Source: Thalassospira xiamenensis M-5 = DSM 17429
GTDB taxonomy: Bacteria > Pseudomonadota > Alphaproteobacteria > Rhodospirillales > Thalassospiraceae
Direction: 5' to 3'
DNA: 64,000 bases
NCBI RefSeq assembly: GCF_000300235.2
Contig: NZ_CP004388.1
Span: 4,286,001-4,350,000, forward strand
How positions within the stretch are numbered: the first letter of the stretch is position 1; each line of letters starts with the position of its first letter. Position numbers and translations under genes: made by a program. Shown here in pieces: positions 1 to 13,130 of the stretch. Below the pieces are notes generated by a model. It did no database searches, had not been told where the DNA came from, and saw nothing but the letters and a program-made list of their open reading frames with translations.

Positions 1-553
1 AAACGATGCCCTCCGCAGCCGCCTTTTCAACAAGCGACAATAAACGCGGGGCACGCGGATCAAGCGGATGGAAACGATGCCCAAATCCCGGAATATGTTT
101 GCCATGTTCGGCAATCTGATGATCCAGACCAGCAGCTGTCGCATCGGCCAGGCTTGCGCCGCTATCCATGCGCGCGGCAATATCGTGGTAAAGTCCGACA
201 GCCTGTTCGCCCGCCCCACCATGAACATCACCCAGAACATTTACAGCACTGGCCATCGCGTTATTCAACCCGACCCCGCAGGTCGCAGCCATTCGCGCGA
301 TTGCGATACTCGGTGCCTGCGGGCCGTGATCGACTGCCGCGACAAGCGCGGCCTCAAGCAAGGCTGCCTGTCCCTTTGATGGTAACTCACCGCGCGTCAT
401 CAACCAAATCATACCGGGGAAACTGATATTGCCGATCAGGTCCTCAATGGGGTAACCGCTGAAATGGATTTTCCCCGGTTCCATATCGATGATGGATGTT
501 TTCCACCAGTCGCTGACTTCGTTTTCAATGTCTTCTGCAGTTTTATCGCTCAT
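1..553 (-). CDS. Citryl-CoA lyase-like (short citrate-synthase fold) protein, C-terminus beyond window edge
   Basis: The reverse strand reads an open frame from ATG at 553 to the window edge (184 residues seen). It starts MSDKTAEDIENEV. The citrate-synthase landmarks are present: GDVHGGAGE with a catalytic-type His at 111 and PGFGHRFHP with His159. The first His comes about 150 residues earlier than in full-length citrate synthase, which fits the short lyase-type members that split citryl-CoA-like thioesters into acetyl-CoA and an oxoacid. The ATG overlaps the stop of the upstream CoA-transferase gene (ATGA), so the two are translationally coupled. The third catalytic residue lies outside the window. 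The exact substrate is inferred, not shown. Confidence 0.8.
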   Translation of the reverse strand, partial: MSDKTAEDIENEVSDWWKTSIIDMEPGKIHFSGYPIEDLIGNISFPGMIWLMTRGELPSKGQAALLEAALVAAVDHGPQAPSIAIARMAATCGVGLNNAMASAVNVLGDVHGGAGEQAVGLYHDIAARMDSGASLADATAAGLDHQIAEHGKHIPGFGHRFHPLDPRAPRLLSLVEKAAAEGIV

Positions 554-1767
554 AGCACGCCCTCGGCTTTCAAGGTGGCGACCTCCTCGGCGGAAAGACC
601 AAGAGTGGCCAGAATGGTTTCGTTGTCCTGTCCCAGAACCGGTGGCGGCGCATTAACCGAAGGCGCGTCGCCATTCATCTTGATACCGGTACGCAGAATG
701 CGGATGTCACGTTCGGCACCCGGTACATCGGTAAAATCGGCAAGCATCCCGCGATCAGCAATTTGCGGCAGCGAAAGGGCATGCGGCACGGTCAAAACCG
801 CGCCTGCCGGTACGCCAGCGGCGTTGAATTTTGAAACCCAGTGATCTGTTGGACGGGTTACGAGTATTCCTTCAAGCAGATCGCTTAGTTCCCTGCGATG
901 CGACAGGCGTTCCGTTCGGGTAATGAAACGCGGATCGATTTTCAGGTCTGGCAATTCCAGAACATCACAAACGGCTTCAAACTGTTCCTGTTTGTTTGCT
1001 GCAATGTTGATCTTGCCATCCTGTGTGCGGAAAGTACCCGACGGCGAGGATGTGAAATTATCGTTTCCGTTGGCTGTTGGCTGTTTCCCGGCGATCAGGA
1101 AATTCGACACCACCCACCCCATGGTGGCAATTACGGATTCCAGCATCGAAATATCGATAAAACTGCCCTTGCCTTCATTGCTTCCCATGGCACGCCCGGC
1201 AAGTGCCGCTGTGATTGCGTATGCGGCGGTAAGGCCCCCTATCGTGTCAGCCATCGGATATCCGACACGATAGGTTTCCTTATCTTCTTCGCCGGTGATT
1301 GTCATAATGCCCGAAAGCCCCTGCACGATCTGGTCATAGGCAGGCAGCTTTTTCATCGGTCCGGTTTGCCCGAAACCCGAAATCGCACAGTAAACCAGCG
1401 CCGGATTTACCCTCGACAGCACATCATAGCCAAGGTCAAGCCGATCCATCACGCCGGGTCGGAAATTTTCGACAACGACATCCGCCTTCGCGACCAGCTT
1501 TTTGAGTATTTCCTTACCGCGCGGATCCTTGAGGTTCAGCGTGACGGATCGTTTCCCGGCATTCTGCGCCATGAACGAAACCCCCATCAGCTTTTCATTC
1601 AATCCCTGATCCGCGCCCAATTGACGTGCAAGGTCCCCCCGACCGGGTGCTTCGACTTTGATGACATCAGCCCCCAGATGGGCAAGCTGATGGCAGCAAA
1701 ACGGGCCCGCCAGAACGTTGGTCAGGTCCAGAACGGTAATACCGGCAAGTGGTTTGGTCGTATCCAT
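550..1767 (-). CDS. Family III CoA-transferase (CaiB/BaiF type)
   Basis: 405 residues, full length for the family. It transfers CoA between an acyl-CoA donor and a carboxylic acid. The N-terminus LAGITVLDLTNVLAGPF, the block KVEAPGRGD and the NFRPGVMDRLDLGYD segment are typical. The likely nucleophilic Asp is D174 in GYPMADTIGG. It is coupled by a 4-nt overlap to the citryl-CoA lyase-like gene, so the predicted job is to make the CoA thioester that the lyase cleaves. It is divergent from an IclR regulator, with inverted half-sites just upstream. The acid and CoA donor cannot be read from the sequence; tricarboxylates are suggested by the nearby transporter. The protein start at 1767 sits 119 nt from the IclR start. 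Confidence 0.88.
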   Translation of the reverse strand: MDTTKPLAGITVLDLTNVLAGPFCCHQLAHLGADVIKVEAPGRGDLARQLGADQGLNEKLMGVSFMAQNAGKRSVTLNLKDPRGKEILKKLVAKADVVVENFRPGVMDRLDLGYDVLSRVNPALVYCAISGFGQTGPMKKLPAYDQIVQGLSGIMTITGEEDKETYRVGYPMADTIGGLTAAYAITAALAGRAMGSNEGKGSFIDISMLESVIATMGWVVSNFLIAGKQPTANGNDNFTSSPSGTFRTQDGKINIAANKQEQFEAVCDVLELPDLKIDPRFITRTERLSHRRELSDLLEGILVTRPTDHWVSKFNAAGVPAGAVLTVPHALSLPQIADRGMLADFTDVPGAERDIRILRTGIKMNGDAPSVNAPPPVLGQDNETILATLGLSAEEVATLKAEGVL

Positions 1768-1778
1768 GAGATTTCCTT

Positions 1779-1821
1779 AAATTCTGTCTGGTAGAATTTT
1801 GTTCTATTATATAGAATTTTG
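1779..1821. promoter_or_regulatory. Array of four alternating half-sites, probable IclR operator
   Basis: Between the divergent CoA-transferase and IclR genes are TTCTG (1782-1786), TAGAA (1792-1796), TTCTA (1802-1806) and TAGAA (1812-1816). Their centres are exactly 10 bp apart and their orientation alternates, giving overlapping palindromes such as TAGAA-N5-TTCTA and AAATTCT-N7-AGAATTT. One-turn spacing places all sites on one face of the helix, as expected for a dimer or tetramer regulator. Binding by the adjacent IclR protein is an inference. Confidence 0.55.
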
Positions 1822-1886
1822 ACCAATCACAAAACGCCCAATAACATTGCATCGGGTCCAACCGTCACGCGGAAATCGGATTAATC

Positions 1887-2567
1887 ATGTCAGAACAGAA
1901 TGTTAGCGCGGTTGAACGTGCCCTGGTCATTCTTGATGCCTTTACAGATCGCGACGCCGATCTTTCGCTCAAGGACCTTGCTGAACGCACAGGGATGTAT
2001 AAAAGCACGATCACCCGATTGGCTGGAACGCTGGAGTCGCGGGGGTTTCTGGCAATATCGGGGCGTGGACGTTACCGGCTGGGACCAGCATTGTGGCGTC
2101 TGGGGTCAATATATCGTCGTTCATTTCGTATGGATGACGTGGTTCGACCACATCTGTCGGCGCTTGTTTTGGCCAGCGGCGAAACAGCCTCTTTTTATGT
2201 GCCCGAAGGAGAAAACCGCCTGTGCCTGTTTCGCGAAAATTCCCCCAGCAGCCTGCGCCACCATCTGGAAGAAGGTGCGATACTCCCCTGTGATCGTGGC
2301 GCGGCCGGGCACGTGATACGCGCATGGGGTAATGGCGTCGATGATCATGCAATTGACGTTCTTGAAGCCGGTTTTTCCCAAAGCGAAGGCGAACGTGATC
2401 CGGATATATCAGCAATCGCAGTACCCGTTCTGGACCGGCAGAACAGGCTGCTTGGTGTTTTGACTCTTTCGGGACCGGTCAGCCGGTTCAATCAATCGAA
2501 ACGCAAGGAAGCACTTCTTTTCCTGAAGAAACATGCCCTTGAGTGTGGACGAGCATTGTCGGCATAA
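1887..2567 (+). CDS. IclR-family transcriptional regulator
   Basis: 226 residues. The N-terminal winged helix-turn-helix covers about residues 8-65 (SLKDLAERTGMYKSTITRLA), with the family's LESRGFL wing. The C-terminal IclR effector domain follows, with the ASGETASFYV and GAAGHVIRAW segments. IclR proteins usually sense small organic acids and control adjacent catabolic genes, including their own promoter. Its position between the CoA-transferase/lyase pair and the tricarboxylate transporter operon suggests it controls one or both. The start ATG at 1887 has only a weak GGAAAT ribosome site upstream. Confidence 0.92.
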   Translation: MSEQNVSAVERALVILDAFTDRDADLSLKDLAERTGMYKSTITRLAGTLESRGFLAISGRGRYRLGPALWRLGSIYRRSFRMDDVVRPHLSALVLASGETASFYVPEGENRLCLFRENSPSSLRHHLEEGAILPCDRGAAGHVIRAWGNGVDDHAIDVLEAGFSQSEGERDPDISAIAVPVLDRQNRLLGVLTLSGPVSRFNQSKRKEALLFLKKHALECGRALSA

Positions 2568-2893
2568 ACCGTTTTCCGCAGCGGCTTTTGCCGCATGATC
2601 ATAAATGCTGTGAACTTTTTTCACTCTGTTTGGTGCGATGACAGGTTGGTGACAGGTTTGCCTGTTACCGTCTTCGCGCTGCCGATCCGTCAGGTCGAAT
2701 GATCTGATATAAGGACAATCAAAAAGGATCATCGGCAAGGGAGGCCTTCAGCTGTTTGTTGTCATGGGGTACCGGCATGTCGCCGGAATGCAAGCGCAGC
2801 CAGACCTTCATTGCAGATGCCTTGTCCTGAACTGATCGGCCTGCCGCCAATCGGCGGCCAGGGAAGGTTTTTGTGTCTGGAGGAGACGACAAC
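2568..2893 (+). promoter_or_regulatory. Intergenic leader of the tct operon with two inverted repeats
   Basis: There is no gene in this 326-nt gap. It contains GGTGACAGG (2648-2656) facing CCTGTTACC (2661-2669) with a 4-nt loop and one mismatch. The first arm partly repeats the preceding GACAGGTT, forming a direct repeat. A second GC-rich repeat, GCCGCC-AATC-GGCGGC (2843-2858), lies 36 nt before the tctC start. These could be an operator, the end of the IclR transcript, or a leader attenuator; the sequence alone does not decide. Confidence 0.35.
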
Positions 2894-3892
2894 ATGACGA
2901 AGCTGACGATGTTCTCACGTCGCGGATTCTTGGCTGCAGCAACTGCTGTTGCCGTTTCAACTGCTGCATTTGGCGCCTTTGATGCCAAAGCGCAGGAAGT
3001 TAATGATATCCACTTCATCGTTCCGGGTGGTGCCGGCGGTGGCTGGGACAGCACTGCACGTGGTACCGGTGAAGCCCTGACCAAATCTGGTCTGGTCGGT
3101 ACGGCGTCATATGAAAACATGTCTGGCGGCGGTGGTGGTAAAGCCATTGCCTACATGATCGAAGCTGCAGATCGCCTCGACAACACCCTGATGGTCAACT
3201 CCACCCCGATCATCATCCGTTCTTTGACCGGCGTATTCCCGCAGTCGTTCCGTGACCTGACCCCGATTGCCGGTGTTGTTGCTGAATATGCCGCGTTTGG
3301 CGTTCCGGCTGACAGCCCTTACAAATCCTTTACTGATGTTGTCGAAGCGATCAAAGCTGATCCGAGCTCGGTCAAGTTTGGTGGCGGTTCGGTCCGCGGC
3401 GGTATGGATCACATTGTTGCGGCCTATGCTGTTCAGCAGGGCGGCGGTGATGCCAAACAGGTGAAATACATTCCTTACGACGCCGGTGGCAAAGCAATTG
3501 CCGGTCTCCTGTCGGGTGAAACCGAGGTCATTTCGACCGGTCTTGGCGAACTTCTTGAACTGCACAAAGCAGGTCAGATTCGTATTCTGGCTGTGACCTC
3601 GACCGATCGGATCGAAGTTGCTCCGGACGTTCCTTCGCTGGGTGAGCTTGGCATTAATGCTGAATTCATCAACTGGCGTGGTTATTTCGGTTCCCCGGCT
3701 CTTTCGGCTGAAAAGGCGGACGAATACGCCAAGATTCTGAAAGACGTTCAGGCAACCGAAGAATGGGAAGTCGTTCGCAAGCGTAACGGCTGGGAAAAGT
3801 TCTACAAGCCGCGTGCCGAGTTTTCCGCGTTCATGGAAAATCAGGAAAAAACGGTTGGCGATCTGATGCGTGAACTTGGCTTCCTGAAATAA
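2894..3892 (+). CDS. tctC: TctC-family periplasmic solute-binding protein of a tripartite tricarboxylate transporter
   Basis: 332 residues from ATG 2894, chosen because GGAGGAGA lies about 8 nt upstream and the signal peptide begins there; a GTG at 2873 would add seven residues. The signal carries a twin-arginine motif (SRRGFLAAA) and a cleavage region near AKAQEV, so export in folded form via Tat is possible. The mature protein opens NDIHFIVPGGAGGGWD, the hallmark of the TctC/Bug fold that captures organic acids such as citrate, in the periplasm. It is the first gene of tctC-tctB-tctA-mcp-abrB. Ligand identity cannot be predicted reliably from the sequence. Confidence 0.93.
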   Translation: MTKLTMFSRRGFLAAATAVAVSTAAFGAFDAKAQEVNDIHFIVPGGAGGGWDSTARGTGEALTKSGLVGTASYENMSGGGGGKAIAYMIEAADRLDNTLMVNSTPIIIRSLTGVFPQSFRDLTPIAGVVAEYAAFGVPADSPYKSFTDVVEAIKADPSSVKFGGGSVRGGMDHIVAAYAVQQGGGDAKQVKYIPYDAGGKAIAGLLSGETEVISTGLGELLELHKAGQIRILAVTSTDRIEVAPDVPSLGELGINAEFINWRGYFGSPALSAEKADEYAKILKDVQATEEWEVVRKRNGWEKFYKPRAEFSAFMENQEKTVGDLMRELGFLK

Positions 3893-3938
3893 GCCATCTC
3901 GACCTGCAATAAAAAAGACCTCTGAAGGAAACCACGCC

Positions 3939-4412
3939 ATGTCCATCAATCGTGACAAGTTCGGCGCACTGCTCTTTTTGTGCCTTGCGCTGATCTATGG
4001 CTATTATGTTCGCGATATCCCGCTTCTGTTCGGTGACGAAGATGCCCCGTTCAATGCCCGGACCCTCCCTAATGCCGTGGCGTGGGTACTGGGTGTGGTT
4101 TCCTTCGTCCAACTGGTACTGCCGGCCAATCGAGAGGCCGGCAGCCTCCTTGCCGCATTCCGCGGCATGAAATGGAAACCGGTCATCATGCTTGCCGCAT
4201 TGATGATCTTCTATGGCCTGACCATTCGCTATCTCGGCTTCCTGATCTCGACCACCATCTTCCTGATGGGCGGTTTTGCCGTTCTTGGCGAACGCCGCAT
4301 CAAGGTCCTGCTGGGTGCAGCCGTACCTGTCGTTTTCGTGTTCTGGTTCCTGCTGTCCCAGTTGATGGGGATTTATCTGGCACCGGGCGACATCTTCGAA
4401 ATGCTGGGCTAA
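3939..4412 (+). CDS. tctB: TctB-family small membrane subunit of the tripartite tricarboxylate transporter
   Basis: 157 residues with four or five hydrophobic segments (about residues 8-28, 50-66, 84-103, 106-122 and 128-150), the layout of the small TctB subunit that partners with TctA in the inner membrane. The start ATG at 3939 follows GAAGGAA. It lies 46 nt after tctC and 10 nt before tctA, and is in the same operon. TctB sequences are poorly conserved, so the call rests on size, topology and position between tctC and tctA. Confidence 0.9.
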   Translation: MSINRDKFGALLFLCLALIYGYYVRDIPLLFGDEDAPFNARTLPNAVAWVLGVVSFVQLVLPANREAGSLLAAFRGMKWKPVIMLAALMIFYGLTIRYLGFLISTTIFLMGGFAVLGERRIKVLLGAAVPVVFVFWFLLSQLMGIYLAPGDIFEMLG

Positions 4413-4422
4413 GGCGAAAGAA

Positions 4423-5958
4423 ATGCTTGAAGGAATTTTCTCCGGTCTTTCGACCGCAGTCATGCCGATCAACCTTCTGATGGTTGTTGTCGGTTGTTTT
4501 GCCGGTACCTTTATCGGCATGTTGCCTGGTCTTGGTCCGATCACGGCCATTGCGCTGATGATCCCGATCACCTATGGCTTTGATCCCTCTACCGGCCTGA
4601 TCCTTATGGCTGGTGTGTATTATGGCGCGATTTTTGGCGGGTCGACATCATCGATCCTGATCAATGCACCCGGCGTTGCCGGAACCGTTGCCACGGCGTT
4701 TGACGGTTACCCGATGGCTCAGCAGGGCCATGCCGGCAAGGCACTTGCCATTGCGGCCTATTCTTCCTTCTCTGGGGGCACGATCGCTGCCATCTTCCTT
4801 CTGGTTGCAGCACCGGCACTGGCTTCGGTTTCGCTGTCCTTCCAGTCGGCTGATTATTTTGCATTGATGGTTCTGGGCCTGACTGCCGTTTCCGCGTTCG
4901 CCGGAAAGGGACAGGTTCTGAAGGCAATCACGATGACCCTGTTTGGCATCATGCTATCAACCATCGGCACCGATCCGGCGGCTGGCGTTGCGCGCTTCAC
5001 CTTTGGCAGCATGGACCTTGTCGACGGCATCAGCTTCCTGTTGCTGGCGATGTCGACATTTGCCCTGTCCGAAGCCCTTCTGCAGATTCTGCGTCCGACC
5101 AAGGATACCCGTACTGACGAACAAAAAGCACTTAGAAACCTCGGCTCCATGAAGCTGACGAAGGAAGAGGTCAAAATCATGACCCCGGTCATCGCCCGCT
5201 CCTCGGTGCTTGGTTTCTTCACCGGCGTTCTTCCGGGTGCCGGTGCAACGATCGCGTCCTTCCTTGCCTATGGCCTTGAACGCAACCTGGCTAGTGCCAA
5301 GGAAAAGCTCAAGTTTGGCAAGGGATCAATCCGGGGTCTCACAGCACCGGAAACGGCAAACAACGCGGCATGTTCCGGTTCGTTCGTCCCGCTTCTAACG
5401 CTTGGTATCCCGGGTTCGGGAACCACTGCTGTGATGATGGGTGCGCTGATTTCTTATGGTGTTCAGCCAGGTCCGCGTCTGTTCGTCGAACAGCCTGACG
5501 TGTTCTGGTCGGTCATCATTTCGATGTATATCGGCAATATCGTTCTGCTGGTTCTGAACCTGCCGCTGATCCCGTACATCTCGCGTTTGCTGGCACTGCC
5601 GCAACAGTTGCTGGTTCCGTTCGTCCTGTTCTTCTCGCTGATCGGTGTTTATCTGGTGACGTTTAACACCATGGATATTCACATGATGGTCTTGGCCGCG
5701 GCAATTGCCATTGGCCTGCGCCTGTTGAATTATCCGATGGCACCCATGCTGCTGGGCTTCATCCTGGGCGAAATGATGGAAGAAAACCTGCGTCGCGCAT
5801 TGATGATCAGTGATGGTTCGATTTCCTTCCTTTGGGAACGCCCGATTACGCTTGTAATCCTGTTGATCAGCATTGCCTTCCTGTTGGCACCGCTTGTCGG
5901 GAACACCCGTCAGTGGTTGCGCAACCGCAAGGCCGTTCCGAACGACGGCGAAATGTAA
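4423..5958 (+). CDS. tctA: TctA-family large permease subunit of the tripartite tricarboxylate transporter
   Basis: 511 residues, about 11-12 membrane segments, standard TctA length. It shows the two glycine/proline-rich family signatures, [16 protein letters not shown] near the N-terminus and [16 protein letters not shown] in the second half, plus [14 protein letters not shown] and [15 protein letters not shown]. It forms the sodium- or proton-coupled channel through which the acid captured by TctC passes into the cytoplasm. Closely spaced with tctB (10 nt) and followed by a chemoreceptor gene after 35 nt. Confidence 0.95.
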
Positions 5959-5993
5959 GACCAAATATCTTCGACGCGAAGGATACAAAAGCG

Positions 5994-7676
5994 ATGCGTT
6001 TTCTCGATAATCTTTCAATCGGCCCGAAAACCCTTTTGGTTCCTGTTTTTCTGATGGTTGTGATCATTGCGATGGGTATCGCAACGGTTCTGACATTGGA
6101 AAGCGAAAAGGAAACGCTGAACAACCTTCGCGTCGAAGCTTATGAACGCCGTTCCGATGCGCTGACACTCAGTGACGCACTGAACGAAGCGCACGGAAGC
6201 CTTTTCCGGATTCTGACGTGGGATTCCAACGGCGTTAATGCCGCCGCGGTTCCCGAACTTCGCGAAAAGGCCGGTAATCTGTCTACCGAACTGGCCCCGC
6301 TTGCCGAACGTCTGGCAGAAGTCGGCGGCGATGAATTTACCACCGCCTACGACACCTATATGAACGAAGTCGATCAGTTCCTGATCGAAAGCGAGATGAA
6401 TATCTATGGCGCGCTTGAGGTTATTGCGCGTGCCGATGAGTCCTTCCGCGCACTGCAAGTACCGTTGCAGAAAATTCTCGTGCAGTCTCAGGAAGTTGCC
6501 ACCACATCATTTGGCAACGCCCAAGCGCAGGCCGAAACACTTCAGAAGGTCTTCGTCATTGTCGCGATTGTCGTGATCTTTGTCGCGGCAGTCGTTTCAG
6601 TTTTTGTTTCACGCCGTATTTCGCGCCCGATGACCGATCTTGCGCAACTGATCGAACAGATTTCCAAGGGTGACCTTGATGTGGAAATTCGTGGTGTGCA
6701 GCGCCGTGACGAGATTGGCGTGGTTGCGCGCTCGGTAACCGTTCTTCGCGATCAGTCAAAAGAAGCCGAAACACTGCGTCATGAACGCGAACGCGTGCGA
6801 AAGATAGAACGCGAACGCCAGCTTGAACTGGTTAAGGCAACCGACAATTTCCAGCGTGCCGTCCAGGAAGCTCTCGGCGGATTTGACCGTGAATTCGGGT
6901 CACTGAACGGCTCGGCAAACGACATGGAACAGATTGCAACATCGGCCACCGCACGTGCTGCTGATGCCAACCATCATTCCGAAGCTGTCCTGCATCATAT
7001 CGAGGCCGTATCACAAACCACCGCCAGCCTGTCAGAGGCCATCGGAGAAATTGGCCAGCAGGCACAGAAATCAGCCGAAGTTGCCGGACGCGCCCGCACT
7101 GAGAGTGAACATTCCCGCGCCCTGTTTGAACAGCTGACCGAAGCAACCCAGCGAATTGGTGATATTGTTACGCTGATCGAAGACATCGCCAACCAGACAA
7201 ACCTTCTGGCATTGAACGCAACGATCGAGGCAGCACGTGCCGGTGACGCAGGCAAAGGCTTTGCCGTTGTCGCAGGCGAGGTTAAAAACCTTGCATCACA
7301 AACCGCCCGCGCGACCGAGGATATTTCGGCACAGGTCGAAGAAATCCGCGGTCTGACAGACAATGTTGTCAGTGCTCTTGAATCCGTTGCCAATGTTATT
7401 GGTGAAGTTGATCAATCAGCCGCGGCCATTGCGGCGGCGGTGGAAGAACAACAAGCCTCGACCAATGGCATATCGACCAGCATCCATGATGCCAATGGTG
7501 GCATGCGAACGGTTGCCGATGCAGTTGGTGCATTGGACACGGAAACCGCCCGCGTTCACACCGGATCGGAAAACGTTTCGCGTGCGACAAACACCCTGAA
7601 TGCCGAAGCTGCCCGCCTGCGTGATGCGATCGACGGCTTCCTTGACCAGATCAACAAGAACAAGGCCGAGGCATAA
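5994..7676 (+). CDS. Methyl-accepting chemotaxis protein in the tct operon
   Basis: 560 residues from ATG 5994, chosen because GAAGGAT lies just upstream and membrane segment 1 begins about residue 12. A periplasmic four-helix-bundle-type sensor region covers about residues 36-185, membrane segment 2 about 186-208, then HAMP, then the cytoplasmic signalling domain with hairpin tip near residue 396 ([20 protein letters not shown]). That tip contacts CheA/CheW. It sits 35 nt after tctA and 2 nt before the AbrB-like gene, so it is probably co-transcribed. This suggests it guides swimming toward the transported acid, either directly or via loaded TctC. No C-terminal CheR-binding pentapeptide is seen. 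Confidence 0.93.
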
Positions 7677-7678
7677 TA

Positions 7679-8797
7679 ATGAGCGTCCCGCCGGAAAGGC
7701 CCGCAGACGACAGTTGGATCAACCGCCTTTCCAGCAGCCTCACCCCGAAATTTTTCAAAAACCTGTTTGTGGCACTTGGCATAGGGCTTGTGGGCGGGTT
7801 GATCGCACACGGCATCAATATGCCGCTTGCCTGGATGATGGGGCCAATGCTCGCGACATTTGTCGCCAGCCTGCTGCGTGTCCGCATGGGTATCCCGATG
7901 CGATTTCGCTCCGTTATTCTGGGTGTGATCGGCGTATTTCTCGGGGCATCCTTTACCCCAGATACCCTTGATCAGGCGGCCCGATGGCCGATCAGTATGA
8001 TTGCGGTTCTGCTTTACGTTCCGATCATCACGCTTGTTGTTACCTGGTTTTACAGCAAGGTCGCAAAACTTGATCCGGCAACGGCTTTGTTTTCAGCCAC
8101 ACCGGGCGGTTTGACGCCAATGGTGGTTCTGGGTGCCGCCGCAGGCGGCAACGAACAGGAAATCGCCCTCACACAGGGTTTACGCGTTCTGCTTCTGGTC
8201 ATGTCAGCACCATTGATCGTCCTTATGATCACCGGTGTCGTCGCAAGTGGTCATGGCGATAGCGAAGCCATCCAGATGACGTTGTCCGAGGGACTGATCA
8301 CGGCATTCTGTGCGATTGCAACCGTCCTGGTTTTCCGAAAAATCGGCATTCCCGCCGCCGAAATGACCGGCGCCATGATGGCCAGCATGGTTTTGCATGT
8401 AACCGGCCTTGTAGAGGGCAATCTGCCCGGATGGTTATTGGCCGGAAGCCTTCTGATTCTCGGCTCGGCAATTGGCAGTCGCTTTGCCGGGGTAAAGCTT
8501 TCCTTCCTCGCCCGTCTTGCAGGTTATTCGATCTTTGCCACTCTGCTGATCCTTGCCTTCACCGGCGGAGTGGCCTGGTTTGTTTCTGATTGGCTGGATC
8601 TTGATTATATTGCTGTTCTGCTCGCCTTCGCACCGGGTGGCGTTGCGGAAATGTCCCTTATCGCGCTGGCGCTGAATGTCGAACCAAGCTTTGTTGCTTT
8701 CCATCATATCGTCCGCATTTTCGAGATCGTATTGCTGGCACCACTCATGGCAAAGTGGTTCGAACGATATCGTCAAAAGCGTTTAAACAACCTTTAG
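7679..8797 (+). CDS. AbrB-family (COG3180-type) integral membrane protein
   Basis: 372 residues with about ten hydrophobic segments and two related halves, each carrying the family motif: TPGGLTPMVVLGAA in the first and APGGVAEMSLIALAL in the second. This is the AbrB membrane family, sometimes mislabelled as a regulator or ammonia monooxygenase; it is often linked to transport, but its biochemical role is not firmly known. The start lies 2 nt after the chemoreceptor stop, indicating operon membership with the tricarboxylate transporter. It could be an additional exchanger for the same substrate. Confidence 0.85.
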   Translation: MSVPPERPADDSWINRLSSSLTPKFFKNLFVALGIGLVGGLIAHGINMPLAWMMGPMLATFVASLLRVRMGIPMRFRSVILGVIGVFLGASFTPDTLDQAARWPISMIAVLLYVPIITLVVTWFYSKVAKLDPATALFSATPGGLTPMVVLGAAAGGNEQEIALTQGLRVLLLVMSAPLIVLMITGVVASGHGDSEAIQMTLSEGLITAFCAIATVLVFRKIGIPAAEMTGAMMASMVLHVTGLVEGNLPGWLLAGSLLILGSAIGSRFAGVKLSFLARLAGYSIFATLLILAFTGGVAWFVSDWLDLDYIAVLLAFAPGGVAEMSLIALALNVEPSFVAFHHIVRIFEIVLLAPLMAKWFERYRQKRLNNL

Positions 8798-8867: not shown

Positions 8868-9533
8868 ATGCAAACGAGGCTTTCGGGGCGGAGCTCGCAA
8901 ACATTCGGCTTACACGGCCAAAGTCCTTTGCCGAAACGGCTCTTTGATCTTTCAGTTGCCACAACCTTACTTATCGCGGCCCTTCCTTTACTACTTTTGA
9001 TAGCGATAGCCCTGAAATGCGATCATCGTGGCCCCGTATTTTTCAAACAGGTTCGCATCGGGTATCTTGGCAGGCCTTTCAATATTTATAAGTTCTGCAC
9101 TCTTTGGGGTTCGATACGCCCGGACGGCACACCTCTGCCACCGACAAAATTCTGTAATTTCATTCGGCGCTGGGGTCTGGACGAGCTGCCGCAGCTTTTC
9201 AATATCGTTCGTGGTGATATGTCACTTGTCGGGCCGCGCCCGCATACACCAGCGGACAATCACGATTTCGCCCGGCACTTTGCGCTTTATAATGCACGCC
9301 ATCAGGTGCCACCTGGCATCACAGGTCTGGCCCAGATCAATGGTTGGCGCGGCCCAATTCAGTCCAGTTTTGATCTGAAAAGCCGCCTTGACTGTGATCT
9401 TCTCTATATCAACCAGCAATCTTTGACATCTGACATACTTATTTTGATCTGCACAGTCACGCGCCCTTGGTACTGGGTGAATGGCCCAAAGCGCACATCC
9501 CCTGAAACACTGTCATCATGTCGTACCGGATGA
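8868..9533 (+). CDS. Polyprenyl glycosyl-1-phosphate transferase (exopolysaccharide initiating sugar transferase)
   Basis: 221 residues. It has a short N-terminal tail, one hydrophobic hairpin about residues 28-50 (LFDLSVATTLLIAALPLLLL), then the catalytic domain typical of the WbaP/WcaJ/PglC-type family: KRLFDL, GPVFFKQVRIGYLG, RRWGLDELPQLFNI, MSLVGPRPH and PGITGLAQINGWRG. It loads the first sugar-phosphate onto undecaprenyl phosphate at the inner membrane. It lacks the multi-span N-terminal domain of WbaP, so it is the short form. It overlaps the following beta-barrel gene, and the three genes 8868-11291 look like one operon. Confidence 0.92.
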   Translation: MQTRLSGRSSQTFGLHGQSPLPKRLFDLSVATTLLIAALPLLLLIAIALKCDHRGPVFFKQVRIGYLGRPFNIYKFCTLWGSIRPDGTPLPPTKFCNFIRRWGLDELPQLFNIVRGDMSLVGPRPHTPADNHDFARHFALYNARHQVPPGITGLAQINGWRGPIQSSFDLKSRLDCDLLYINQQSLTSDILILICTVTRPWYWVNGPKRTSPETLSSCRTG

Positions 9534-10765
9534 AAAACGCTGGCTTTAAGACTGCTTCACTATGTTGCAGCATTCTGCTGGCCAACTGTTTCAATCCTGT
9601 GGCTTTTGCAAAGTCTGAAGCGACACAAAAGAACAGGCGAGATACAACAATTCAGCTTGGCCTTTTTGATTTGGTGCCATCGCTTTCGGTGACAGAGGAA
9701 TTCAACGACAATATTTTTCTGTCCGATAGCTACCAAAAGTCCGACACCATTAGCCGGGTAGTACCTGCTTTAACCTTGCAATCAAATTGGCAACGGGCCC
9801 GCTTACGACTTGAAGCTCTTGGTGATGCTGGGTTTTACGCCAAATCAGGCGAAGATGATTATCTGGATGGCGAACTTGGTGTTTCCGCCGGATCGGATAT
9901 CGGCCCGGCATTTGCTGTTGATGGCGATTTCCGTATCGCCAAAGGTCACGAAGATCGCGGCGGTGATGATATTCCGGCCGGTGCCAGCGAACCCGTCACC
10001 TATGACGAGAAAAATACTGAAATTGCCATTCGCTATTTTGCCGGTGATGTTCACTACCGAGCCGCCATGGCCTTTCGACAGCTTGATTTTGACGATACCG
10101 CGCTCACCAATGGGGGTATTGCCAATAATGATGATCGGGATCGGACTGAATTGCGGCTGATCATGCGGGCTTCTTATCAACTGGGACCAGGCCGCGAAGC
10201 TTATGGCGAGACCACCTTTAACCAGCGAGAATATGAAAATACCCCCGACGATCAGAGAATTTTTCGCAATTCAAACGGTTACCGATTGCTGGGCGGCATG
10301 ACATTTGACCTTACCGATTTGATTAAGGCCGATCTCGGGGCTGGATGGATGTCGCAAATTTATGAGGATTTCCGTTTGCAAAATAACGAAGGGTTTTCAC
10401 TTCGTGCCGCAACAACATGGAATATTACACGCATGACTGCGTTGGATTTCCGCGCCAAACGCGAAATCGGGGAAACCACCGTTACCGGTGCCAGCGGAAT
10501 TATCGGTGAAAGCTTCGATGCCGGTATTGAACATGAACTACGGCGCTGGCTAAGCATCCGCCTTAACGCTGGCTATCAGCAGGATCGGTTTGAGGGGGCA
10601 GGACGGACTGACAAAGTAACGCGCTTTGGCGGAGGTGTGCGTTATGAACTCAACCGTTTTACGGAACTGGATGGTTCCTGGCGATATGACCAGCGTAAAT
10701 CAAACGAAACCGGCCATGATTATCGCCGCAATCGCGCTTTGCTGACGCTTCGGTTGAAAATGTGA
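9530..10765 (+). CDS. Outer-membrane beta-barrel protein of an exopolysaccharide export cluster
   Basis: 411 residues from ATG 9530, which overlaps the stop of the sugar transferase (ATGA); an in-frame ATG at 9518 would add four residues. The N-terminal signal peptide ends near PVAFAKS. The rest consists of alternating amphipathic strands with a C-terminal aromatic/hydrophobic ending (LLTLRLKM), typical of the BBP2-type outer-membrane proteins found beside Wza-like exporters. The early segment LVPSLSVTEEFNDNIFLSD is characteristic. It is inferred to help polysaccharide pass the outer membrane. Function is by family and neighbours. Confidence 0.8.
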   Translation: MKNAGFKTASLCCSILLANCFNPVAFAKSEATQKNRRDTTIQLGLFDLVPSLSVTEEFNDNIFLSDSYQKSDTISRVVPALTLQSNWQRARLRLEALGDAGFYAKSGEDDYLDGELGVSAGSDIGPAFAVDGDFRIAKGHEDRGGDDIPAGASEPVTYDEKNTEIAIRYFAGDVHYRAAMAFRQLDFDDTALTNGGIANNDDRDRTELRLIMRASYQLGPGREAYGETTFNQREYENTPDDQRIFRNSNGYRLLGGMTFDLTDLIKADLGAGWMSQIYEDFRLQNNEGFSLRAATTWNITRMTALDFRAKREIGETTVTGASGIIGESFDAGIEHELRRWLSIRLNAGYQQDRFEGAGRTDKVTRFGGGVRYELNRFTELDGSWRYDQRKSNETGHDYRRNRALLTLRLKM

Positions 10766-10769
10766 TGTC

Positions 10770-11291
10770 ATGAAAAACATAATTCTGACTGCAATCCTTT
10801 TGTTCGCGGTTTCAGGTGGCGTTCATGCCCAGACCGTCTACACGATTGATAGCGGAGACGAACTGCGTATCACGGTTTTCGACGAGGAATCTCTTTCAGG
10901 TGATTTCTCGGTCGGTGCAGACGGATCCGTCACTCTGCCCCTGATCGGAACGGTTACCTTGCGCGACCTCACGCCACAAGCTGCACAGCAAACCATCGCC
11001 AACGTCCTTGCAGACGGTTATCTACGCCATCCCGTTGTATCCATTGATGTTCTTCATTTCCGCCCCGTCTATATTATTGGCGAAGTCAATGAGCCCGGTG
11101 AGTACGGGTATGCTTCAGGAATGAACGTATTGAATGCCGTCGCACTTGGTGGCGGTTACACTTATCGCGCCGATCAGGATGACATCATTATCATGCGTGG
11201 CCGCGACGATAATCGCGTCGAGATTCAGGCCAACGAGCAAAGCATTGTATTGCCTGGTGATATTATTCACATCACGGAACGGTATTTTTAA
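10770..11291 (+). CDS. Wza/VpsN-like polysaccharide export protein (short form)
   Basis: 173 residues. The signal peptide is about residues 1-20 (cleaved near VHAQ; no lipobox Cys). A Poly_export domain follows (YTIDSGDELRITVFDEESLS ... VTLPLIGTVTL), then one SLBB domain (RPVYIIGEVNEPGEYGYASG). It is half the size of E. coli Wza, has one SLBB domain and no C-terminal outer-membrane helix, so it may depend on the upstream beta-barrel protein for outer-membrane insertion. It starts 4 nt after that gene. No Wzc-type kinase or co-polymerase gene lies next to it. Confidence 0.9.
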   Translation: MKNIILTAILLFAVSGGVHAQTVYTIDSGDELRITVFDEESLSGDFSVGADGSVTLPLIGTVTLRDLTPQAAQQTIANVLADGYLRHPVVSIDVLHFRPVYIIGEVNEPGEYGYASGMNVLNAVALGGGYTYRADQDDIIIMRGRDDNRVEIQANEQSIVLPGDIIHITERYF

Positions 11292-11462
11292 AATTCGTTG
11301 TAAGCGAATAAGCGATCAATCTAATTGGAACGATTTCAAAAGATTGACGAAAAAATCTGTTTAAAGGTGAACCCCATCTTTACGGGCCGGTTTAACCATG
11401 ATGAAATCCGGTCACGCGCAAAAGCGCCCCACCAAGACAATGCGCATCTCAGGGAGCCCCGA

Positions 11463-13130
11463 ATGTCGAATACTGCGGAAATGCGTCACGGCGGACGCAT
11501 ACTGGTCGATCAACTTGCCCTTCATGGCTGCGAACGGGTTTATCTTGTTCCCGGTGAGAGCTATCTGGCTGTTCTCGATGGCCTGGTCGACCATCCCGAT
11601 ATAGAACCAATCATCTGCCGTCAGGAAGGCGGTGCCGCCATTATGGCCGAGGCGCACGGCAAACTGACCGGAAAACCCGGCATCTGCATGGTCACGCGCG
11701 GTCCAGGTGCAACCAATGCGTCGGCGGGCGTGCATGTCGCCCATCAGGACAGCACCCCGATGATCCTTCTGGTCGGTCAGATCGGGCGTGAAATGGTTGA
11801 TCGCGAAGCCTTTCAGGAAGTCGACTATCGCAAGATGTTCGAACCGCTTTGCAAGTGGGTTGCCCAGATCGACGACATCAACCGCATCCCGGAATATATC
11901 AGCCACGCCTATCATATCTCGACATCCGGTCGCCCCGGACCAGTCGTCCTTGCTCTGCCGGAAGATATGCTGTCATCTGCAGCCGCAGTTGCCGATGCCA
12001 AACCCTATGTCCCGATCGAAGCCAAAACTGCGCCCGAAGATGTCGCCCGGTTCCGCGGTGCGCTAGCAGATGCGAAACAGCCGATCATGATCGTTGGCGG
12101 TGGTGGATGGACCGTAGAAACCACCGAAAACCTTAAATCGTTTGCAAAACGAAACAATGTTGCGATCGCCACCAGTTTCCGCTGCCAGGACTATGTCCCG
12201 AACACACACAGCCATTTCATTGGCGATGTCGGCATCGGGATCAATCCGGAACTGGCGCAATTCATTCGCGAAAGCGACCTTGTGATCCTTGTCGGGTCGC
12301 GCATGGGGGAAATGACCAGTAGCGGTTACAGCCTGCTTGAAATTCCCTGCCCGAAACAGAAACTGATCCATGTTTACGCAGGCCCCGATGAATTGGGCCG
12401 TGTTTATCGCCCTGATATCGCAATCAATGCATCCCAACGATCATTCATCCGCGCCATCGCCATGATGGAACCGGTGGATGGAAGCGAACGCGAAGAACAG
12501 ATTGAAACGGCCCACACTTCATATCTGAAATTCTCGACCCCGCTTGACACGCCGGGCGATGTAAAGATGGCCCATGTCGTCGCACAGCTTCGCGAAATCC
12601 TGCCCGAAGACGCAATTGTGTCCAACGGGGCTGGCAACTATGCCGCCTTCCTGCATCGATTCTTCCGGTATGGCAAATATCGCACCGAGCTCGCACCGAC
12701 TTCGGGTTCGATGGGCTATGGCCTTCCAGCATCTGTAGCCGCCAAGCTGACCCACCCGGATCGCCCGTCGATCTGTCTTGCCGGTGACGGATGCTTTTTG
12801 ATGCACGGCCAGGAATTCGCAACCGCGGTTCAGTACGGTGCCAACATCATCGTGATCGTGGTCAATAACGGCATGTTCGGTACCATCCGCATGCATCAGG
12901 AACGCAATTATCCCGGTCGCGTTTCAGGCACCCAGCTGCACAACCCGGATTTTGCAGCCTACGCTGTCGCTTTTGGCGGACATGGCGAAACCGTTACCAA
13001 GACCGAAGATTTCGGACCGGCTTTTGAACGCGCCATGAATTCGGGAAAACCGGCGATTATCGAGGTACAGGTTGATCCGCAGGCCTTAACCCCGATCAAG
13101 ACACTGGATCAAATTCGCGCGGGCAGCTGA
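11463..13130 (+). CDS. Thiamine-diphosphate-dependent enzyme, acetolactate-synthase-like
   Basis: 555 residues from ATG 11463, preceded by AGGGAG; an upstream extension to 11325 looks non-coding. The three domains of the acetolactate synthase/pyruvate oxidase fold are present: an N-terminal PYR domain with the cofactor-activating Glu55 (RQEGGAA), a central domain with GGGGW, and a C-terminal PP domain with the metal/ThDP motif GDGCF...NN (about residues 440-470). It is not next to an ilvN-type regulatory subunit, so a catabolic 2-oxoacid carboligase or decarboxylase role is as likely as branched-chain amino acid synthesis. Substrate unknown. Confidence 0.85.
   Translation: MSNTAEMRHGGRILVDQLALHGCERVYLVPGESYLAVLDGLVDHPDIEPIICRQEGGAAIMAEAHGKLTGKPGICMVTRGPGATNASAGVHVAHQDSTPMILLVGQIGREMVDREAFQEVDYRKMFEPLCKWVAQIDDINRIPEYISHAYHISTSGRPGPVVLALPEDMLSSAAAVADAKPYVPIEAKTAPEDVARFRGALADAKQPIMIVGGGGWTVETTENLKSFAKRNNVAIATSFRCQDYVPNTHSHFIGDVGIGINPELAQFIRESDLVILVGSRMGEMTSSGYSLLEIPCPKQKLIHVYAGPDELGRVYRPDIAINASQRSFIRAIAMMEPVDGSEREEQIETAHTSYLKFSTPLDTPGDVKMAHVVAQLREILPEDAIVSNGAGNYAAFLHRFFRYGKYRTELAPTSGSMGYGLPASVAAKLTHPDRPSICLAGDGCFLMHGQEFATAVQYGANIIVIVVNNGMFGTIRMHQERNYPGRVSGTQLHNPDFAAYAVAFGGHGETVTKTEDFGPAFERAMNSGKPAIIEVQVDPQALTPIKTLDQIRAGS

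Follow-up and report, generated by a model that had tools for sequence, protein, structure and literature searches.

We analysed a 64,000-nucleotide stretch of the 4.77-Mb genome of Thalassospira xiamenensis M-5 (G000:C1:4286001-4350000; hereafter the window), one end of which carries genes for the apparent uptake of an organic acid, its activation with coenzyme A (CoA) and its cleavage. Eight genes are present in the order lyase, caiB, iclR, tctC, tctB, tctA, mcp and abrB (Table 1), and Pfam and NCBIfam profile scans agree with these names. The lyase and caiB genes lie on the minus strand and overlap by 4 bp; iclR, tctC, tctB, tctA, mcp and abrB lie on the plus strand, with gaps of 46, 10, 35 and 2 bp along tctC-tctB-tctA-mcp-abrB. 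TctA, TctB and TctC all score above their Pfam cut-offs within one operon, i.e. they form a tripartite tricarboxylate transporter. A first-pass annotation, made from the letters of the window alone, had given this gene set with its order, overlaps and spacings, which gene calls and profile scans bear out. All eight genes are confirmed, but the lyase gene is incomplete at the window edge and two starts are corrected: tctC most likely begins at ATG 2894 rather than GTG 2873, and mcp most likely at 5994. It missed a TctDE/binding-protein sensor that lies outside the window: past the edge, moving off from the lyase, there follow two genes that read as an anti-sigma and a sigma factor, then an SBP_bac gene, a regulator that by reading is TctD-like, and a TctE-like kinase. 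The module couples a cleavage of the citryl-CoA-lyase type to the CoA-transferase and tripartite transporter that supply it, and we see an even chance that it senses, imports, activates and cleaves homocitrate or a near homologue.

The gene neighbourhoods of lyase relatives were compared in 130 loci, i.e. the best 80 of 191 relatives found in a species-level scan of named genomes, 23 and 15 loci from sampled genomes, and 12 of 29 plasmid records. The window's own locus, a second Pectobacterium stretch (L169), L232 and L233 were left out. The set divides into 17 Thalassospira-type loci and 113 others, with each neighbour gene named after the protein of a chosen reference set that phmmer matched best, at hand-set thresholds; the lyases of L033 and L165 are identical and probably come from one genome, and some contigs are short. 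A caiB gene lies within 300 bp of the lyase gene in 117 of the 130 loci. The whole gene set of the window is present in all 17 Thalassospira-type loci, in which the SBP gene either overlaps the lyase gene or ends at most ~40 bp from it. Within 9 kb of the lyase, the 113 other loci contain CaiB (104 loci), IclR (62), TctC (61), TctA (27), a TctE-like kinase (12) and AbrB (7). The lyase was found in one of 295 genomes of the order of Pectobacterium genome G001 (G001 itself), in one of 247 of the phylum of G003 (G003 itself) and in 5 of 200 of the order of G008.

The transporter is associated with the lyase more often than expected by chance. Of 25 alphaproteobacterial lyase genomes, 7 have TctA within ~9 kb of the lyase (against an expected 0.59, p 8e-7), and of 12 from the order of G010, 8 do (against an expected 0.45, p 4e-10), with flags entered by hand and an expectation that assumes TctA to be evenly placed in a 20-kb window; without the centre genomes G000 and G010 the counts are 6/24 and 7/11 (p not recomputed). 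Among 385 alphaproteobacteria, an orthologue of the window TctC (identity of 52% or more, compared with 42% for the match that follows) occurs in 19, the lyase in 25 and both in 11 (Fisher p ~4e-10), and nine shared genomes remain when the own genus is removed (p 3e-8). In 8 of the 11 sharing genomes the assembly places TctC and the lyase at separate loci, although in two of these (G443 and G613) the lyase lies near a contig end so that the distance is unsure. This indicates that their co-occurrence goes beyond mere linkage. Elsewhere the genes form a single run: tctC-tctB-tctA-caiB-lyase is found in six of nine lyase genomes of 1.6-2.3 Mb, with SBP, TctE- and TctD-like genes divergent from it in four of the six, and Ruegeria has the same layout. 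The window TctC is 53.9% identical to the TctC of a Desulfuromusa lyase locus and 56.5% identical to that of L156. The idea of the first-pass annotation that the lyase, the CoA-transferase and TctCBA act together therefore agrees with the adjacency in 117/130 loci, the TctA enrichment and the TctC/lyase co-occurrence; a comparison of neighbourhoods, the check it had named, does find the lyase/transferase pair with tctCBA above chance. That the three form one functional unit is well supported, and so, by adjacency and co-occurrence, is the sequence in which an imported acid is made into a CoA thioester and then split.

The lyase belongs to NF004864 (citryl-CoA lyase; 472.5 bits, cut-off 261), and its closest solved structure, both by sequence and by fold, is the Hydrogenobacter citryl-CoA lyase 6hxp. 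Its best identities among relatives are 93-94% (Thalassospira). An alignment of 116 rows, which like the lyase tree omits 15 of the 17 Thalassospira-type sequences because they are nearly identical copies, shows H76, H111, H159, R167, D212, R237 and R254 to be invariant in all 116. The catalytic His/His/Asp and carboxylate-binding Arg of citrate synthase are present as H111, H159, D212, R167 and R237, whose roles we presume by homology with citrate synthase residues. No alignment position separates ring-type (quinate/shikimate-linked), Tct-type and lactonase-type rows at 80% purity in each class. On the lyase tree the ring contexts need four changes, at least three of them forced by well-supported branches. 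A lyase 73% identical to that of Pectobacterium is encoded in Cupriavidus metallidurans CH34 (NC_007974.2:718650-719465), a genome stated in PMC2864759 to lack a citryl-CoA synthetase/lyase route.

The CoA-transferase matches PF02515 over positions 1-366 of 366 (394 bits), and the Asp of its A-Y-D motif, which we take to be the functional residue, aligns with two solved relatives. Its closest solved structure is succinate--hydroxymethylglutarate CoA-transferase (9br6). The best NCBIfam model is succinate--glutarate CoA-transferase (297.6 bits, cut-off 750), and in the NCBIfam scan CaiB reaches none of the named CoA-transferase equivalogs (succinate--glutarate, oxalate, mesaconate). Five lyase loci, all without an adjacent CaiB, contain a CoA-acylating aldehyde dehydrogenase (ALDH), which is found within 9 kb in none of the 117 CaiB loci. 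This ALDH is of the CoA-acylating type by its closest solved structure (5j78) and its best model (SauS, 425 bits, cut-off 600); where an ordinary-type aldehyde dehydrogenase stands beside a thiamine pyrophosphate (TPP) enzyme (Methylobacterium nodulans, Streptomyces and Nonomuraea), CaiB is present. CaiB and the acylating ALDH would be alternative makers of the thioester that the lyase requires.

Several relatives encode the lyase among genes of quinate and shikimate metabolism. In Azoarcus sp. KH32C a co-directional run comprises genes for an HPPD-like protein, a sugar-phosphate-isomerase-like protein, CaiB, the lyase, a TPP enzyme, shikimate dehydrogenase and type I 3-dehydroquinate dehydratase, and the same gene set occurs in the Aromatoleum/Azoarcus loci L072, L077 and L078. 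The isomerase-like protein matches the N-terminal part of QuiC (156 bits) and the HPPD-like protein its C-terminal part (131 bits; cut-off 1200). None of the relatives' proteins scanned reaches the NF042435 QuiC cut-off (131-330 vs 1200 bits), so that by profile score they are QuiC-like paralogues or QuiC parts only. Within an alphaproteobacterial clade, the loci L126, L127 and L129 have a TRAP transporter, a QuiC-like fusion, the lyase, an isomerase-like protein, an acylating ALDH and a TPP enzyme, with shikimate dehydrogenase in addition in L126; Pelagibacterium (L053) has a TRAP transporter, shikimate dehydrogenase (above cut-off), ALDH, the TPP enzyme and the lyase. The Azoarcus TPP enzyme is 69% identical to that of Pelagibacterium and 65% to that of L126. 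It is lyase-linked: in all three plasmid records that contain it at E 1e-120 (one of them the query's own), the lyase lies within ~5 kb.

Two further contexts bear on the product and the acid. In Pectobacterium aroidearum the gene order is IclR-CaiB-lyase-DASS symporter-2-oxoglutarate dehydrogenase E1-E2-E3; when Escherichia coli was searched with the symporter-dehydrogenase stretch, the matches among the 8 best of 5376 records spanned no more than 29% of the query and lay in its E1 part. Lactonase-like genes occur in the 113 non-Thalassospira loci (Amidohydro_2 in 15, SMP-30 family in 8), which fits homocitrate because homocitrate forms a gamma-lactone and citrate does not. Two genomes divide the functions between loci. 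In G636 the single lyase match (E 1e-60) lies in the ring locus L129, while a separate locus (L228) has TctDE-like genes, an SBP gene, TctCBA and a CaiB 58% identical to that of the window; G548 is similarly split between a lyase in the TRAP-type locus L120, in which no ring genes were seen, and a tct locus (L223) with a CaiB of 62% identity. Among the best few candidates scored per genome (6/11 in G636, 6/9 in G548), these two genomes suggest that one lyase seemingly serves both an imported acid and a second feeder.

From the quinate/shikimate, ALDH, 2-oxoglutarate dehydrogenase and lactonase-like contexts we infer a homocitrate-type C7 acid that yields 2-oxoglutarate, not citrate that yields oxaloacetate; the genomic context thus probably favours a homologue of citrate over citrate as the lyase substrate acid. 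The first-pass annotation had called the pair a two-enzyme alternative to citrate lyase, which these contexts of the relatives do not favour. The evidence is best read with its order of events, in which the CoA-transferase activates the acid and cleavage then gives acetyl-CoA and an oxoacid. We see an even chance that the substrate is a tricarboxylic acid with a HOOC-CH2-C(OH)(COOH)-R centre, most likely homocitrate, where R is CH2CH2COOH, or a near homologue. We propose that (i) TctD/TctE with the binding protein encoded outside the window and, in Thalassospira, the chemoreceptor would detect the acid; (ii) TctCBA would take it up; (iii) CaiB would place CoA on the CH2-COOH arm, with succinyl-CoA as the probable donor; (iv) the citrate-synthase-fold lyase, working in the direction of cleavage, would split the thioester into acetyl-CoA and a 2-oxoacid, i.e. 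homocitryl-CoA into acetyl-CoA and 2-oxoglutarate; and (v) IclR would govern caiB-lyase.

In other bacteria the lyase could complete a breakdown of quinate and shikimate that is oxygen-independent and non-aromatising. There the opening of the ring, together with the acylating ALDH in some, would supply the thioester directly. Its steps would lead through 3-dehydroquinate, a cyclic dione, opening by a thiamine enzyme, homocitrate semialdehyde or acid, and homocitryl-CoA to acetyl-CoA and 2-oxoglutarate. In the chemistry envisaged, 3-dehydroquinate would be dehydrated away from C1 to 1-hydroxy-3,4-dioxocyclohexane-1-carboxylate, and hydrolysis that opens the ring between the two carbonyls, with oxidation, would give HOOC-CH2-C(OH)(COOH)-CH2-CH2-COOH, i.e. 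homocitrate. The balance would be quinate + CoA + 2 NAD+ -> acetyl-CoA + 2-oxoglutarate + 2 NADH, with no oxygen consumed. Were the TPP enzyme to cut dehydroquinate without prior dehydration, the far-arm hydroxyl would stay, and the near arm and the acetyl-CoA step would be unchanged. The widest form of the proposal is that homocitrate is a bacterial carbon source and that the NF004864 'citryl-CoA lyases' are homocitryl-CoA lyases ending two routes, i.e. free-acid uptake (by TctCBA or an orphan TctC, then CaiB) and the non-aromatising quinate/shikimate pathway; we put this somewhat short of an even chance.

Several observations weigh against homocitrate and against the routes proposed for it. 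We know of no record of free homocitrate as an abundant marine nutrient. Eight of the 19 genomes with a TctC orthologue have no lyase match, 14 of the 25 lyase genomes have no TctC orthologue, and in G598 (L225) the genes on either side of the orthologue are an aconitase-like gene and PrpF, which suggests an aconitate-type substrate there. Because of these neighbours and the eight genomes without a lyase, the cargo of this TctC may include citrate or aconitate as well, i.e. several tricarboxylates. Ring gene sets are uneven: L123 is without QuiC, L124 without ALDH, TPP enzyme and isomerase-like protein, and L120 has the TRAP transporter only. The TPP enzyme scores higher with acetolactate synthase (275 bits) than with cyclohexane-1,2-dione hydrolase (170 bits), so the ring-opening chemistry is a proposal, in which the far arm may be hydroxylated. 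The 2-oxoglutarate dehydrogenase context comes from a single genome, the lyase being present in one of 25 Pectobacterium genomes, and the lactonase-like assignment is at superfamily level (69-76 bits, cut-off 400). Four of the five acylating-ALDH loci belong to one lyase clade, the fifth being Pelagibacterium, so the alternation with CaiB perhaps reflects two independent events. Finally, 8 of the 130 loci have neither an adjacent CaiB nor an acylating ALDH; among these, L079 has a weak, below-threshold second CaiB next to the lyase, and CaiB is more distant in L114 and L176.

Citrate itself is an unlikely substrate in our estimate. CaiB would then make citryl-CoA and the lyase would release acetyl-CoA and oxaloacetate, a two-enzyme citrate lyase. 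The family name and fold (NF004864, 6hxp and ATP-citrate lyase modules) are consistent with this. So are the citrate cargo of several characterised TctCBA systems (PMC5812351) and the resemblance of the TctDE-like neighbour to the citrate-responsive BctDE described in that paper. The genome, however, has aconitase (two matches), so imported citrate could join the tricarboxylic acid cycle directly and its splitting would presumably be futile in an aerobe. Citrate also fails to account for the other settings of this lyase, with quinate/shikimate genes, the acylating ALDH, lactonase-like genes or 2-oxoglutarate dehydrogenase.

We hold a different 2-hydroxy acid that shares this centre (2-methylcitrate, citramalate, hydroxylated homocitrate or a 2-alkylmalate) to be equally improbable; it would give acetyl-CoA and a different 2-oxoacid. 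A thiamine-enzyme cut of undehydrated dehydroquinate would be expected to keep the far-arm hydroxyl, PrpF and an aconitase-like gene stand beside the TctC orthologue in the one genome mentioned above, and accessory enzymes differ in some loci (e.g. SDR and FAA hydrolase in L113). Citramalate and alkylmalates are nonetheless disfavoured by the invariant R237 and R254, which fit a second carboxylate of the oxoacid by the presumed roles of their citrate synthase counterparts (R254 less surely). A scan of the eight window genes and of two neighbours, not aimed specifically at prpB and prpC and not extended to the rest of the genome, showed neither of these 2-methylcitrate cycle genes.

It is very unlikely, and largely refuted, that caiB-lyase-iclR merely stands next to tctCBA-mcp-abrB as an operon of unrelated function. 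The two probably have promoters of their own, given the 326 bp upstream of tctC and the candidate IclR operator seen at caiB alone, and within 9 kb TctC is missing from 52 and TctA from 86 of the 113 non-Thalassospira loci, but several lineages have a single co-directional tctCBA-caiB-lyase operon, the association persists while the Tct gene order changes, and the enrichment and co-occurrence statistics speak against it. An itaconate-type pathway is rejected since there is no hydratase among the scanned window genes and the lyase fold differs; citrate lyase (CitDEF) is rejected since a scan limited to the eight window genes and to two neighbours shows no CitD, CitE or CitF domain.

Table 1. 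Features of the module and of its surroundings; plain positions are those of the window.
Feature	Position	Strand	Basis or remark
Citryl-CoA-lyase-like enzyme (proposed homocitryl-CoA lyase)	1..553, cut by window edge	-	NF004864
Lyase, full-length gene	L004:15705-16553, 282 aa	-	Whole-genome sequence
CaiB/BaiF family III CoA-transferase	550..1767	-	PF02515, 394 bits
Candidate IclR operator, TTCTA-N5-TAGAA half-site array, between caiB and iclR	1782..1826	.	Pattern search
IclR-family regulator	1887..2567	+	Pfam/NCBIfam
TctC periplasmic binding protein, Tat-like signal (by reading)	2894..3892	+	PF03401, 75 bits
TctB small membrane subunit	3939..4412	+	PF07331
TctA large membrane subunit	4423..5958	+	PF01970, 509 bits
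Chemoreceptor, periplasmic helical-bundle sensor domain	5994..7676	+	HAMP + MCPsignal
AbrB-like membrane protein (Gneg_AbrB_dup)	7679..8797	+	PF05145, 276 bits; TIGR03082, 224 bits
2CSK_N (TctE-like) kinase, outside window	L004:10504-11910		Over 2CSK_N cut-off
TctD-like response regulator, outside window, between SBP_bac gene and kinase	L004:11907-12572		Named by reading
ECF-type sigma and anti-sigma factor (by reading), outside window	L004:14364-15700	+	Between lyase and SBP gene

Known systems resemble the homocitrate module proposed here in part. Hydrogenobacter thermophilus CcsAB + Ccl shares the lyase fold and the probable chemistry, in which a citrate-type CoA thioester gives acetyl-CoA and an oxoacid. 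CcsAB activates by ATP-driven ligation, whereas the module activates by CoA transfer, is coupled to uptake and catabolism, and probably acts on another acid. The TctCBA/TctDE and BctCBA/BctDE citrate uptake systems, as set out in PMC5812351, likewise have a tripartite transporter and an adjoining 2CSK_N kinase and regulator; the module differs from what is described there in its CaiB-lyase pair, IclR, SBP_bac protein, AbrB-like protein and chemoreceptor. Its TctC moreover falls in a divergent orthologous group. In the QuiC route from quinate/shikimate to protocatechuate, the TRAP, shikimate dehydrogenase and QuiC-like proteins of a quinate/shikimate-type locus in Chelatococcus are homologous to those of the relatives' ring loci, which add a TPP enzyme, ALDH and/or CaiB, and the lyase, whereas the window region has the uptake and proposed terminal steps only. 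The itaconate Ict-Ich-Ccl pathway also combines a CaiB-type CoA-transferase with an acetyl-CoA-releasing lyase; unlike it, the window shows no hydratase among the genes scanned, and the itaconate-pathway lyase is of the CitE/HpcH TIM-barrel type rather than the citrate-synthase fold.

To our knowledge, homocitrate is known solely as a biosynthetic intermediate and nitrogenase-cofactor ligand. A literature search, mostly of titles and abstract openings so that absence is no proof, returned nothing on this module, on homocitrate catabolism or on a homocitrate-based non-aromatising quinate/shikimate pathway. If the proposal is true, the protein name on close to two hundred relatives (the 191 of the species-level scan) is wrong in substrate, and homocitrate gains a catabolic route. 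Quinate and shikimate would then have a second fate, independent of oxygenases and leading directly to acetyl-CoA and 2-oxoglutarate, which would bear on their use by denitrifying, marine and plant-associated bacteria.

The half-sites TTCTA and TAGAA of the candidate operator between caiB and iclR are 10 bp apart. In a pattern search of the genome this array contains the only sites with 0-1 mismatch; at two mismatches a reversed control yields more matches than the pattern, so those matches are noise. The operator core is kept in all 17 Thalassospira-type loci while its flanks diverge, and nothing similar was found upstream of tctC. The kept array at caiB-iclR and its absence at tctC point to IclR control of caiB-lyase and of iclR itself. 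These, rather than tctCBA, are most likely its targets: the regulator that the first-pass annotation placed beside the module seems to serve caiB-lyase through an operator of its own, and seemingly not the transporter. IclR is closest to the PcaR/PcaU/PobR and BhcR models, below their cut-offs. The Pseudomonas loci L034 and L035 contain an exact TTCTA-N5-TAGAA-N5-TTCTA array, and the operator may therefore extend beyond the genus.

A TctDE-type pair lies near tct, comprising a 2CSK_N kinase above cut-off and a regulator named by reading; among the 113 other loci, TctE-like genes occur in 12, the SBP gene in 12 and both in 11. By analogy with BctDE, described in PMC5812351 as a citrate-responsive two-component control of the Bct transporter, TctDE most likely controls the transporter here. 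The chemoreceptor is genus-specific, being present in 17/17 Thalassospira-type loci and 0/113 others. A model of its residues 1-261 is all-helical (pLDDT 70), with weak fold matches to four-helix sensor domains such as those of Vc1313, Tar and PcaY_PP, none below E 0.001.

Other genes near the module or its relatives were also noted. Window positions 8868-13130, 3' of abrB, carry sugar transferase, beta-barrel and polysaccharide export genes (by reading) and then a PRK08199-type TPP enzyme, which look unrelated to the module; the TPP gene (11325-13130; PRK08199 subfamily, 878 bits) was rejected as a module part, lying behind the polysaccharide-like genes. A second tripartite tricarboxylate transporter locus of the same genome (L006, G000:C1:4250001-4262000), found by its TctC match, has as neighbours (by reading) gamma-glutamyltransferase, TctA, TctB, a GntR-type regulator and an Asp/Glu racemase-like gene. 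PmbA/TldD and inositol-phosphatase genes 5' of tctC in L224, and glycine-cleavage genes 3' of the lyase in Oceaniradius, look like bystanders. At L113 (G598), GFO/IDH/MocA-like, SDR and FAA-hydrolase genes precede CaiB-lyase, perhaps marking a different ring or sugar-acid feeder. Aconitase-like genes occur near the lyase in L175 and L179, on plasmids of Agrobacterium larrymoorei and Rhodococcus koreensis.

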